From NCBI GenBank assembly GCA_017303505.1, contig JAFLCP010000002.1, forward strand, positions 1-64,000: a stretch of 64,000 nt of DNA. Reading direction: 5' to 3'. The stretch is from Planctomycetota bacterium. GTDB lineage: Bacteria; Planctomycetota; Planctomycetia; Pirellulales; Pirellulaceae. A program made the translations under genes and the position numbers. The notes below the pieces were generated by a model, which saw nothing but the letters and a program-made list of their open reading frames with translations, was not told the origin of the DNA and searched no databases. Numbering within the stretch: the first letter of the stretch is position 1; each line of letters starts with the position of its first letter. Positions 15,730-52,956 of the stretch are shown here, piece by piece.

Positions 15730-16677
15730 ATGAGTCGATATGGGTTGTGTCTCGTGATAACCGTGATGTTGGTGAGTGCGAGTGGTGCCACTTGTGCGAA
15801 GCATCGAACGATCAAGGAGTTTCAGCCTGAAGTCGTTTGGAAGGAGATGCCCACCATTGAGCAAGTGATGGAGCAAGTCAATGGTTCGCGTCGCATACAG
15901 CAATTGCAGTCATCGACGATCACATTGAAGTTAGATGCCCCTGGAACGCCCGCATTGAGTGCAAATTTATCGATCGAACGTCCGCGTCGGTTGCGATTGC
16001 AGGCTCGTGTGTCGCGATTGATGGGGAACGAGTTGGATATGGGGAGTAATGAGCAAGTGTTTTGGTTGCAGACGATGCGTCCTCAGCCGACATTGTTTTA
16101 CGCTCAGCATCAGCAATTTGAACAGTTGACAGCCCGCAAAGTTTTGCCGGTTTCACCTGATTGGATCATCGAGGCGTTGGGGTTACCGGAGATGAATCCC
16201 GCGGATATTCACGAAGGTCCGATTCAGCGTGCGGATGGATTATTGGAAGTGCGTTCTCAGATTGGGACGGCTTTAGGAACCACGCGGCGGATTTTGGTGT
16301 TGGATCGAAGTGGCTTGGTGCGAGAAATCATTTTGTATGATGCTCAAGGAAATTTGGTGGCACAGGCGAAGCAAACGGAGCACGAAAATTATCCTGGCGT
16401 GAACTATGCGTTGCCGCATCATGTGCAGATCCGGCTTTTGCCTGCGGGCGAGCCGGAGATCAATTTTGATATTGATGTTGGGTTCTATTTGGTCAATGAA
16501 TTGATGGGGAATGATCCGCAGCGCTGGACGATGCCTGATCCTGCGGGGTTGAGTGTGATTGATTTGGTTCAGTTTGCGCAAGGCCAGCAAGTGGCGCCGA
16601 TTCCGCCGAACTATCATCCTGAGTGGATGGAGCGTGAGGCGATGGCAATTCCCTACCGTGGCTTCGAACGTCGCTAG
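15730..16677 (+). CDS. exported hypothetical protein, possibly LolA-like fold
   Basis: A 315-residue protein beginning at an ATG one base after the upstream stop; an earlier in-frame start inside the upstream gene is not needed. The N-terminus is a signal peptide (MSRYGLCLVITVMLV...GATC), with a Cys that might be lipidated although the lipobox is imperfect. The mature part alternates strands typical of LolA/LppX-like lipoprotein-binding barrels (LSIERPRRLRLQARV, VFWLQT, REIILYDAQGNLVAQAK). It may carry or bind lipids at the envelope. The stop codon overlaps a GCTAGCA boundary of the repeat cluster that follows. Confidence 0.6.
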   Translation: MSRYGLCLVITVMLVSASGATCAKHRTIKEFQPEVVWKEMPTIEQVMEQVNGSRRIQQLQSSTITLKLDAPGTPALSANLSIERPRRLRLQARVSRLMGNELDMGSNEQVFWLQTMRPQPTLFYAQHQQFEQLTARKVLPVSPDWIIEALGLPEMNPADIHEGPIQRADGLLEVRSQIGTALGTTRRILVLDRSGLVREIILYDAQGNLVAQAKQTEHENYPGVNYALPHHVQIRLLPAGEPEINFDIDVGFYLVNELMGNDPQRWTMPDPAGLSVIDLVQFAQGQQVAPIPPNYHPEWMEREAMAIPYRGFERR

Positions 16678-16742
16678 CATTTCCCCCAGTCCTCCCACAT
16701 GGTGCCAGGCACCTTGTTTTGGGCTTTCCACCATTGCTAGCA
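16673..16742. repeat. short unit of the GGTGCCAGGCACC repeat cluster
   Basis: Bounded by GCTAGCA at both ends with one GGTGCCAGGCACC palindrome (16701-16713) inside. It overlaps the stop codon of the preceding gene. It appears to be a shortened version of the two longer units that follow. Confidence 0.7.
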
Positions 16743-16926
16743 TTTCCCCTCGAAGCCTTCCCATATGGTGCCAGGCACCATGTTGTTTGCGGCCAAAACC
16801 ACTCATTGGAAGGGGCTTTGGCATCGCTCAAGCTTCGTTATTAGCTATTTGTGGGGGTTTTTCGGGTCCTGCCTGAAGGCAACTTGGTGCCAGGCACCCT
16901 ATTTTGGGCTTGGGGCTTTGCTAGCA
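16736..16926. repeat. GGTGCCAGGCACC-bearing repeat unit, copy A
   Basis: A 191-bp unit flanked by GCTAGCA and holding two perfect palindromes GGTGCCAGGCACC (16767-16779 and 16886-16898). It is a direct duplicate of 17184-17372 with scattered substitutions. It has no coding frame worth calling. Such palindromes are scattered through planctomycete genomes; they could form cruciforms or RNA hairpins. Confidence 0.85.
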
Positions 16927-17183
16927 TTGTATAGGCGATCTTGTGGTTGTCACGCCGATAGGTGTTTTCTTTGGGGTGGACTTAGTTGTGGAGTGTCGTT
17001 TGGTGGGTTAAGCGGCATTGAGAAATCAAAGTTCTGCGCATTAGAAGCAAATAAATGCTTAAGCGGCAGTAGTTTAGTAGCGCTAACCGCGAGTCGGTTC
17101 CTTGGATGAGGTCGTTCGTTGTGTTTCTGTTCCAATTGAATCCCGCGCATGTCGATAGTCATCTCTAGTGCAACCCAACTGCC
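16927..17183. other. unique spacer between repeat copies
   Basis: About 257 bp between the two duplicated units. The only structure I see is a repeated AAGCGGCA (17011 and 17061 areas). There is no convincing gene, RNA or terminator. Confidence 0.4.
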
Positions 17184-17372
17184 GCTAGCATTTTCTCCGC
17201 CCTTCCATATGGTGCCAGGCACCCTGTTGATTGCGGTCAAAATCACTCATTGGAAGGGGGGTTTGGTTCATTCAAGCTTCATGTCTAGTTATTTGTGGGG
17301 GTTTTCCGGTCCTGCCTGAAGGCAACTTGGTGCCAGGCACCCTATTTTGTTGGGCTTGGAGTTTTGCTAGCA
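17184..17372. repeat. GGTGCCAGGCACC-bearing repeat unit, copy B
   Basis: A 189-bp near-copy of 16736-16926, again bounded by GCTAGCA, with palindromes at 17211-17223 and 17329-17341. A diverged palindrome GGTGCCAGACACC follows at 17389-17401. Confidence 0.85.
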
Positions 17373-17522
17373 ATACAGTGGGCCAAATGGTGCCAGACAC
17401 CCTGATGATTCAGCAAACTCGGCTTACAAATTGGATGCGAGCGAATACGCTGTGCGAAAGTTCGAAAAATATGCAGCAATGGTAGCGACGGGAAAAGAAT
17501 CGCTTTAGCATCTGAGGCATCT

Positions 17523-18251
17523 ATGCAAATCACCGCAGCTCAAGTCAAAAAGGAACTCCAGGCTTCTGCTAGCAAACAACGAGCAGAGAAGTCCAAGCGG
17601 TTCTTCAAAACGGGCGAAGGTCAGTATGCGGAATCCGATCAGTTCTGCGGTGTGACTGTCCCAGATCAACGCAAAGTTGCCAAGCTGTATCGGGAACTGC
17701 CGCTCTCCGAAATCGATCAACTGCTGACCGACCCTATCCACGAGTATCGCCTAACGGCAATCTTCATCTTAGTCGATCAGTTTTCACGTAGCCTCAAGCG
17801 ATCGAAAAAGGACCCTTCCGCCAATCCAAAACATTGGGTCGACTATCTGCTTTCTCGCACTGCCCATATCAACAATTGGGACCTCGTCGACAGCTGCGCG
17901 TATCAAATTCTCGGCGAATATCTACTCACGCTCAAAGACCGATCGTTATTGAATTCCCTCGCAAAGTCCTCCAACATTTGGGAGCAACGTCTTGCTATCA
18001 TTGCTAACAAGGCTCTTATCCGCGAAGGTGAATTCAAGCCCCTCCTAAAATTAGCCAACAAGTTTCTCTCTTCCAGACATGACCTCATTCACAAAGCGGT
18101 CGGGTGGATGCTCCGAGAGGTTGGCGAACAAGATCTGGCCACGCTCCTCGCGTTCCTAGACCAACAAGCATCCAAAATGCCACGCACGATGCTGCGTTAT
18201 GCCATCGAAAAGCTAACCAGCAATCAACGGAAACACTACCTTGATCAATGA
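17523..18251 (+). CDS. AlkD-like DNA alkylation repair glycosylase
   Basis: A 242-residue all-helical HEAT-repeat protein of the AlkC/AlkD family, which excises N3- and N7-alkylated purines from DNA. The residues lining the AlkD DNA groove are present: Trp119 and Asp123 in NNWDLVD, Arg156 in WEQRLAI and Trp195 in AVGWML, with spacing like the Bacillus cereus enzyme. Length is normal. It acts in the cytoplasm on double-stranded DNA. It stands alone after the repeat cluster, so its promoter probably lies in or next to the repeats. Confidence 0.88.
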   Translation: MQITAAQVKKELQASASKQRAEKSKRFFKTGEGQYAESDQFCGVTVPDQRKVAKLYRELPLSEIDQLLTDPIHEYRLTAIFILVDQFSRSLKRSKKDPSANPKHWVDYLLSRTAHINNWDLVDSCAYQILGEYLLTLKDRSLLNSLAKSSNIWEQRLAIIANKALIREGEFKPLLKLANKFLSSRHDLIHKAVGWMLREVGEQDLATLLAFLDQQASKMPRTMLRYAIEKLTSNQRKHYLDQ

Positions 18252-48905: not shown

Positions 48906-49519
48906 ATTCCGTTCCTCACCGGCGAGCTATTGACGGGTAGCAATCACAACGACGGTTCGTTTAACGCTGAAGAGTGGCAGAGCACTGCTGTTGGCGCGAC
49001 CATTTCTTGTCTGTGATTGTCGCAGTGATTTTAATACCCTGCCTGAGTCTTTTGGGCATTTGGATGTAGCGAGTGGATGCTGGTTCGGGCGAGTCTGTGG
49101 CGGGGTGAACGAAGAGAAATTACGTCTCTAAGTTTGCTGAGTGAATCCAGGTGAGCGAGTTATTCCCCCCTTGCTTGTGGTGTGTGGCTTCAAGGGAGCG
49201 CTTGCTAATTTTGTTGACTTTGGAAGTTCGATTCCTTAAAACTCAATTCTCGTTCTGTCGCTAATTCTTGTTCAAACTTAAATCTTTTTGGGTTGTCATC
49301 TTTAGTAGTGCTATTAGGTTCAAAGATTTGGTGAATGTGAACGGTTTAGGAAGCCTGGCTGTCCAACGAAGGGATGGCAAATGAAGCGCGATGTGCGACG
49401 TGGTTGTTGAAGAACGACTGCCACCGACGGGAACGAAGTGCGTACCGACCGTTGCATGGCTCGGAGGTTGTAGCGCGGAGTGGCCATGCACTTGGGCAGG
49501 GTGTTTTCTAGCGTTTTTC
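48906..49519. other. left flank of the integron array, no gene seen
   Basis: 614 bp without a convincing gene. A minus-strand frame of 76 codons (49261-49491) is low-complexity and unsupported. A hairpin GCATGGC / GCCATGC lies near 49454-49490. I looked for an integron integrase or attI here and found neither; this is where they would be expected for an array in this orientation. Confidence 0.5.
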
Positions 49520-49601
49520 GTTTAACCCGTAGCCGTAGCGCATGCGGAGGCTAGGTCCGCGTTGGACTCGTCACCTTATGCGTGCTGCCATCACGTTAGA
49601 T
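49520..49601 (+). repeat. attC-like site 1 (non-coding unit)
   Basis: 82 bp from GTTTAAC to GTTAGAT, both matching the RYYYAAC and GTTRRRY core consensus. The arms pair imperfectly (TAACCCGTAGCC... with ...GCCATCACGTTA). No gene precedes it. Confidence 0.75.
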
Positions 49602-49689
49602 GTTTCTGCAGGCAGTGTTGTTAGTTTTCCAGTGCATGCATCGCCACATGCCCTGTTTATGCCAAGCTCAAATCAAACAGCAGGATTTC

Positions 49690-49771
49690 GTTTAACCCGT
49701 AGCCGTAGCGCATGCGGAGGCTAGGTCCGCGCTAGACTCGTCACCTTATGCGTGCTGCCATCACGTTAGAT
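49690..49771 (+). repeat. attC-like site 2 (non-coding unit)
   Basis: Near-identical to site 1: GTTTAAC to GTTAGAT, 82 bp. The 88-bp spacer from site 1 has no gene and is similar in sequence to the next spacer. Confidence 0.75.
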
Positions 49772-49858
49772 ATCTCTACAGGCAGTGCTGCAAGTTTCCG
49801 AGTCCATGCATCGCCACTTTCCCGACCATACCAAGCTCAAGTCAAACAGCCTGATTTC

Positions 49859-49940
49859 GTTTAACCCGTAGCCGCAGCGCATGCGGAGGCTAGGTCCGCG
49901 CTGGTCTCGTCACCTTATGCGTGCAATCACGACGTTGGAT
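49859..49940 (+). repeat. attC-like site 3 (non-coding unit)
   Basis: GTTTAAC to GTTGGAT, 82 bp, close to sites 1 and 2. The preceding 87-bp spacer carries the shared CCAAGCTCAAGTCAAACAG. Confidence 0.75.
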
Positions 49941-50065
49941 ATCTCTACAGGCAGTGTTGTTAGTTTCACCGTCGGAGCACCGCCTCCCGTCCTGTGCGGG
50001 AGGTTCTCGCGCCTGCATAGCTACTTCGCGACCATGCCAAGCTCAAGTCAAACAGTAGGGATTTC

Positions 50066-50136
50066 GTTTAACCCGTACGCCGAAGGCTAGGCGGGTTTTC
50101 GCTGGACTCACCTATGCGTGTTAACTAGCGTTCGAC
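50066..50136 (+). repeat. attC-like site 4 (non-coding unit, shortened)
   Basis: GTTTAAC to GTTCGAC, 71 bp, with a shorter and diverged centre. Its 125-bp upstream spacer is the same family as the others with an inserted hairpin (CCTCCCG/CGGGAGG region, 49983-50004). Confidence 0.65.
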
Positions 50137-51957: not shown

Positions 51958-52956
51958 ATGCTCACAAATGAACAAGCACTTGAGATCATCAGGCAACACG
52001 ACGAGTGCTACGTCGTGTGGGCAATCGACAAGAACGCCATCATCGCCGTTCATCCAATCCCAAAAGATGCCACCGCGAAAGAGCGGTTCTCAGCATTGGC
52101 TGGCATGTCAACAGACTACCGAGGACCAACCAAAGGGCGTTTTCTGGCATCCAGTACCACGACACTCCAGACACTCATTGATGAATCAAAGGAAACCGAA
52201 CGAATCACCACTCGCGTTGCCATTTTCAACACTTGGAAGAACTGCACGGTCGACCAGTTAATTGACATCATCGTCAATGCAGACTTCTCGGGGCCGATGG
52301 ATGTTTTTCACGGTACTAGCCACATCATAGAACGCCTATACAAGATCTTCGGGCCGTTCCTGTCATTATCTCAGATCAATCGGCTGGACGCCTTTTCGCA
52401 CTCGGCGATTTTGCACCATGAACAAGAGAAAGGCCAAAAGGAACTGGACTGCTACCTGTGCGTGCTTACTAATGACCCGGCAAGGTTGCAACACATCTGG
52501 ACAATACACAAATCTCGAAAAAGTGGATGGCCATCGTGGTCTGCATTTGTCGATGCTGCAGGAGACCTGGCAACCGACAACGGAGAGATTATTGATCATC
52601 TCATTTCCGTCGTAGAGAAATCACTAATGTTTGGGCCTCGCTTCGACGCAATGGTTGGATTGGGTAAGATTGGGTCGAATTCGGGTGAACGAGCGGCGAA
52701 AGTGATCTTGGGCGCGATTTACGACAGCAGCGAACACGTCACTGCAGTGCGTGATTGCGTCGTTCGCAGGATTCGAACTCCGTCGTCGGAATGGTCGATG
52801 TGTCGTTCGTGCTATCATGGATACGTCGATGATATGGCTTATCAATTACCTAGCGTCAAAGCATGCAGAGACTGCCTCGGCATTGGCGCTGTCCCATCCG
52901 TGGCAGAACCAAGCGGTGAACGGGAACCGCCGATGGCGCGGGATTTGGATTCATAG
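51958..52956 (+). CDS. cassette gene: hypothetical protein with attC-encoded tail
   Basis: A 332-residue soluble protein, the longest in the array. I do not recognise it. The middle is helical and may hold HEAT-like helices (AMVGLGKIGSNSGERAAKVI). Near the C-terminus CRSCYHGY...ACRDCLG gives two CxxC pairs able to bind a metal. The last ~17 residues (AEPSGEREPPMARDLDS) are translated from attC site 7, whose centre supplies the stop codon. The gene starts 13 bases after attC site 6. Confidence 0.68.
   Translation: MLTNEQALEIIRQHDECYVVWAIDKNAIIAVHPIPKDATAKERFSALAGMSTDYRGPTKGRFLASSTTTLQTLIDESKETERITTRVAIFNTWKNCTVDQLIDIIVNADFSGPMDVFHGTSHIIERLYKIFGPFLSLSQINRLDAFSHSAILHHEQEKGQKELDCYLCVLTNDPARLQHIWTIHKSRKSGWPSWSAFVDAAGDLATDNGEIIDHLISVVEKSLMFGPRFDAMVGLGKIGSNSGERAAKVILGAIYDSSEHVTAVRDCVVRRIRTPSSEWSMCRSCYHGYVDDMAYQLPSVKACRDCLGIGAVPSVAEPSGEREPPMARDLDS

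Follow-up and report, generated by a model that had tools for sequence, protein, structure and literature searches.

Two alternating palindromes in a planctomycete genome: one of many scattered repeat arrays with a probable link to a transposase

The window, a stretch of 64,000 nucleotides from a member of the Pirellulaceae (Planctomycetota), contains between positions 16673 and 17401 a cluster of short palindromes. This cluster is one of many repeat arrays scattered through the genome and probably linked to a transposase. The cluster is unusual in that two different palindromes, here termed R and N, alternate at regular spacing and are both better preserved than the DNA between them. Judged from sequence comparison, there is a good probability that the cluster is a BIME-like array built from the REP family of a divergent RAYT lineage in Pirellula-like planctomycetes, with N as a second RAYT/REP module. 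The system bears on the biological role of REPs and RAYTs, both of which are widespread. In one genus, the presence of a transposase clade varies between species together with that of its palindrome and of a second conserved palindrome. Comparisons of species that have the system with those that lack it can thus address which sequences RAYTs read and why the arrays are retained by their hosts.

R (GGTGCCAGGCACC) occurs five times exactly in the cluster, always on the forward strand (16701-16713, 16767-16779, 16886-16898, 17211-17223 and 17329-17341). A sixth copy, with one mismatch (GGTGCCAGACACC), lies on the same strand at 17389-17401. Dinucleotide shuffles of the whole window gave 0.03 chance matches on average, and the count of five perfect copies and one diverged copy in the initial annotation stands. 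All exact copies in the window share one orientation and alternate with N, whose core GCTAGC begins at 16673, 16736, 16920, 17184 and 17366 and additionally at 17568, within the next gene. N reads GCTAGCA at 16673-16679 and 17184-17190, and TGCTAGCA at 16735-16742, 16919-16926 and 17365-17372. The cluster is flanked by two forward-strand genes, namely an ORF ending at 16677, whose stop codon (TAG) is overlapped by the first GCTAGC, and a DNA alkylation repair gene (17523-18251; PF08713, E = 3.5e-55). Two direct repeats on the forward strand, unit A (16736-16926, 191 bp, arranged as N-R-linker-R-N) and unit B (17184-17372, 189 bp), are 84% identical and both begin and finish at GCTAGCA or TGCTAGCA. 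They are separated by a 257-bp spacer (16927-17183) without similarity to either unit. A short third unit (16673-16742) has N at each end, and its right-hand N is also the left end of unit A. The layout of two repeats of about 190 bp and a short third unit, bounded by GCTAGC(A), is therefore as initially annotated, except that the diverged R, which had been placed within the units, lies 16 bp past the last border and outside unit B.

The genome of the window (7.76 Mb in 295 contigs) contains 70 exact copies of R (43 forward, 27 reverse), against none for a reversed-string control. When up to two mismatches were allowed, 397 strand hits were found against 108 for the control. All but two of the 70 exact copies (68/70) are located outside of ORFs of at least 200 aa, which are ORFs rather than curated genes. 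R is thus a short, extragenic palindrome whose copies are many and above chance, as is expected of a REP. Its flanks are weakly conserved, with ACAn on one side and nTGT on the other. In single-stranded form, R could fold into a hairpin with a stem of 5 bp and a loop of 3 nt, and the flanks would extend the stem; the folding of seven pieces comprising R and its flanks was not convincingly better than that of shuffled sequences (z from +0.34 to -2.68). The tags GTAG, GTGG and CGTC were found 1, 0 and 1 times, respectively, in 140 flanks of 10 nt, which is below background. Inverted close pairs of R are the exception in this genome. One such case is a repeat of about 440 bp on contig C219 (locus L052, 4958-5814), with inverted R pairs 8 bp apart that resemble those beside a RAYT of the relative G013. 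A literature search, from which subscription papers were mostly absent and in which papers were judged by title, returned none placing the 13-mer GGTGCCAGGCACC or its 11-mer core, on either strand, in bacterial repeats. The main text of PMC12306157 contains neither the term Planctomycet nor GGTGCC.

The octamer TGCTAGCA is present at 198 sites in the genome, which is not above the count for its reversed string (224). At least 61 of these sites lie within 60 bp of R (one mismatch or fewer). Conversely, TGCTAGCA was found within 60 bp of 45 of the 70 exact copies of R, where about 0.2 were expected, and GCTAGC within the same distance of 55. R and N alternate along 27 stretches of the genome. 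Here and in other genomes, GCTAGCA is a real partner of the R palindrome, as the initial annotation implied. When the 62 bp beside each of 160 distinct half-sites were inspected, GCTAGC was present in 77. The gap between R and N was 14-27 bp in 52 of these, 28-31 bp in none and 32-38 bp in 15, with the other 10 lying farther away. The linkers differ between loci and have little sequence in common beyond some five positions next to R, where a weak nTGT is followed by G-rich sequence, and some three A/T positions next to N. Duplicated blocks of at least 100 bp were compared in 37 alignments. Mismatches were found at 36 of 1287 positions in R, 10 of 546 in N and 479 of 3580 in the linkers, with about 8% in the four bases beside the motifs. 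R and N therefore change 5-7 times less than the linkers, in a count where most pairs entered in both directions and where only motifs with a near-exact query copy were admitted, a condition that biases the comparison somewhat in their favour.

Searching the genome with the Pfam model Y1_Tnp (PF01797) gave five matches at four places, all without R nearby, and those on contigs C2, C113 (twice) and C90 were rejected as partner transposases for this reason. Partner RAYTs were recovered only with a query from a relative (G013), a RAYT-like ORF of 384 aa with R palindromes on either side, which gave seven protein matches in the genome of the window. Palindromes of R type were found near all four RAYTs inspected: on both sides of those on contigs C44 and C263, on one side of that on C17 and beside that on C227. 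The three full-length RAYTs of this genome and the G013 protein have H-x-H and Y-(I/V)-D-L-N motifs in common. Across the four aligned proteins H71, H73, Y189 and N193 are invariant, and the catalytic motifs are intact. The catalytic tyrosine and asparagine were assigned by analogy with Escherichia coli, in which the tyrosine is Y115. For the asparagine the counterpart is N119 of E. coli, according to PMC6006769. The three full-length proteins match the NCBIfam REP-associated tyrosine transposase with E-values of 4e-4 to 1e-6, and Pfam Y1_Tnp at about 1e-3. Curated cut-offs were not reached (best E-value for NF047646 1.9e-8, 34 of 80 bits, G013; for PF01797 9e-4, 19.8 of 23 bits, C44), and the proteins are consequently called RAYT-like by their motifs and context. 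A phmmer search of PDB chains with one RAYT gave no match. Several contigs stop inside or beside RAYT copies. A closer inspection of these copies revealed that homology stops 4-6 nt outside the outermost R, and not at N (end of C46, starts of C230 and C258; C123 compared with C227). Given the presence of R in the RAYT flanks and the end of homology at R, R is most likely the REP palindrome of this divergent RAYT (Y1/HUH) family.

When GTDB-type contigs were scanned for R with N following 14-44 bp later, 53 stretches were returned, 52 of which came from eight assemblies that are planctomycete by title. The remaining stretch, from Compostibacillus humi, was taken as a chance match. The R-N stretches form tandem arrays with periods mostly of 57-67 bp. 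Within the family, the pattern was present in 8 of 241 genomes, namely that of the window and seven from a second genus, and the reversed pattern in none. A RAYT subclade (64% identity or more) was found in six of the seven R-N genomes of the second genus and in none of its 20 others (27 genomes in all). RAYT matches in those 20 reach up to 42% identity over the full length, and about 55% only in short fragments. The exception, G127, carries R-N arrays without a RAYT of the subclade, in a genome that is 80% complete. All six RAYTs fetched from R-N genomes of the second genus have R within 1.5 kb. In two of these genomes (G121 and G126), the R arrays flanking RAYTs mostly read TGCTGGCA (complement TGCCAGCA) at the position of N. 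Among genomes of the second genus that lack the R-N pattern, R (one mismatch or fewer) is found 52-55 nt upstream of the start in 5 of 13 RAYTs, and R thus looks older than its pairing with N. Between the two R-N genera, RAYT identity is about 30%, and the R-N RAYTs form two clades on long branches; a single joint clade was neither supported nor rejected (p-AU = 0.42).

Related arrangements were also seen elsewhere. One genome, G021, contains 21 exact copies of R, no N in the arrays fetched and RAYT-like matches of about 28% identity; one of its arrays (locus L072, 3656-4830) repeats R without N at periods of 33 and about 65 bp, near the R-N-R spacing in the genome of the window. Other RAYTs of the family (loci L179, L183, L184, L187 and L087) lie near different but related repeated words, namely GTGCCACCCAC, AGGTGGGTGCC (nine times in L183) and GGTGGGTGGCA, which suggests that the palindromes co-vary with RAYT clade.

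The system resembles REPtrons (REP with RAYT, or TnpAREP) in having a multicopy, short extragenic palindrome that flanks Y1/HUH REP-associated transposase genes and occurs both in clusters and singly. However, it has no GTAG or GTGG tag, its RAYT is far from curated models and a second palindrome stands at fixed spacing. As in BIMEs, REPs are set in mosaic intergenic arrays, and the regular alternation of R and N is what is seen in a BIME. Here, in contrast, linker lengths but not linker sequences are kept between loci, and the second motif is itself a perfect palindrome. The GTAG and CGTC REP families include members in Rhodopirellula baltica and Opitutus terrae and show tandem reiteration with flanking DNA and dimers 20-100 bp apart, according to PMC3733652. 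Both features are shared with the present arrays, whereas the defining tag is absent from them. As GTAG and GTGG are nearly absent from the flanks, R was not filed as a GTAG REP. Class 3 TnpAY1 proteins of Planctomycetes are described in PMC6006769 as associated with atypical secondary structures, a CnGA foot and a Y----Q signature. These too are planctomycete Y1 transposases flanked by atypical repeated secondary structures, but the signature differs from the Y-(I/V)-D-L-N of the RAYTs found here. The inverted R pairs 8 bp apart beside the G013 RAYT are reminiscent of REPINs, while in the window the exact copies of R in one orientation, alternating with N, do not form REPINs.

If the RAYT acts on R at all, it would bind and cut beside it. 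N is a second, symmetric module whose distance to R is kept almost constant where two particular RAYT clades are present. Because N follows these clades, it most likely belongs to the RAYT/REP system. Within that system N would most likely be part of the RAYT substrate, for example a cleavage or joining site, with its palindromic form serving either strand. R-to-R modules would be gained, lost and tandemly multiplied between genes. The TnpAREP of E. coli cleaves at a CT dinucleotide, from which the idea of N as a cut site derives. The absence of N near the RAYT on C263, the presence of TGCTGGCA at the position of N in G121 and G126 and the end of homology at R all argue against N as the outer cleavage site. 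The absent tags, the unexceptional folding, the lack of a subclade RAYT in G127 and the low identity between the RAYTs of the two R-N genera count against the reading as a whole. A bolder version of the proposal is that of a two-part REP system, in which R and N, two different self-complementary motifs separated by about three (or four) turns of the helix, would together form the RAYT substrate in place of a single hairpin and its GTAG-type guide. Phased duplex or paired single strands would be read by the enzyme or by a partner, and the two-motif code would have arisen in, or passed to, two genera. We put this forward only tentatively.

A considerably less probable alternative is that R is a RAYT-derived REP and N the site of a host DNA-binding protein, the array being kept because the duplex is occupied by two proteins on the same face. 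In E. coli, REPs are known to be bound by host proteins, among them IHF and gyrase (PMC6006769). Both motifs are symmetric duplex sites, the length of the linker is kept while its sequence is free, and the sides of N are A/T-rich. Moreover, distances measured from centre to centre group around 32, 44 and 54 bp in the genome of the window and around 29, 37 and 48.5 bp in the other genomes, and the steps of about 10-11.5 bp are close to a helical turn. For these counts, pairs whose linkers resembled each other were merged (157 to 103 in the genome of the window; 393 to 91 at other loci, the Compostibacillus humi hit included). However, the tests for multiple modes were modest, both in the genome of the window (p = 0.015 against one mode, p = 0.045 against two) and in the others (p = 0.075 and p = 0.135), and R-R distances alone gave p = 0.25; a jitter test on the spacing was passed mostly owing to the main peak. 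The helical phasing of the distances is therefore no more than suggestive. That N tracks particular RAYT clades is not predicted for a general host protein, and favours N as a RAYT/REP module.

It is unlikely that R and N are merely hairpins of terminators or RNA-stability elements. The position of R between genes would suit such a role, but convergent gene pairs are not preferred: the 18 R clusters for which both neighbouring genes were seen comprise 7 convergent, 6 tandem and 5 divergent pairs, with 9 more clusters unplaced. Moreover, the palindromes are short, no regular T run follows them, their folding is unexceptional and arrays of up to eleven near-exact units would be needless for termination.

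The weakest alternative, a mobile or cassette-like unit of about 190 bp bounded by GCTAGCA, as the initial annotation had read the cluster, is very improbable and was rejected. Units A and B do finish exactly at GCTAGCA on both sides, but the whole genome holds no further copy, other blocks also end at R and such borders arise unaided from conserved motifs and free linkers. A genome-wide search with the 191-bp unit returned its second copy and the short third unit, the rest being matches of 15-50 bp, almost all of which surround R. A sharp border at GCTAGCA is for the most part to be expected if conservation extends to R and N at every locus but not to the linkers, since an alignment then stops at the last conserved motif. 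Of the suggestion that the block moves or duplicates, duplication holds, with further repeats in contigs C276, C239, C240, C46 and C219, and the two units in the window are a local duplication of R-N modules. No clean pair of empty and filled sites was found in searches with the downstream gene (60 genomes) and by tracing one array in the second genus. The DNA alkylation repair gene was present in 7 of the 60 genomes, that of the window included; the array was traced in 27 genomes, 20 of them with the neighbouring gene, and synteny was lost beside it.

Modules do turn over at sites that are kept. Orthologous arrays of the close species G133 and G126, with both flanks aligned, contain 10 and 11 near-exact copies of R, respectively. 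At another orthologous array, exact R is present once in G126 and G121 and three times in G127, where the extra modules sit between R and R and have other linkers.

Two further groups of repeats were seen in the window. Between 52900 and 63230 at least eight imperfect palindromes, each about 80-95 bp long, begin near 52900, 54150, 55960, 57050, 58145, 61508, 62655 and 63136. AAC is found close to their start and, in most of them, GTT close to their end. Intervals of about 0.5-3.4 kb, which contain small ORFs, separate the elements; from 48.5 to 64 kb, only one ORF reaches 250 aa or more. By its layout this region resembles a cassette array of the integron type, in which the elements would be attC-like sites, although a scan with a strict attC pattern gave no match. 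Tandem-like repeats are also found at 49516-50085, with copies at 49516, 49686 and 49855.
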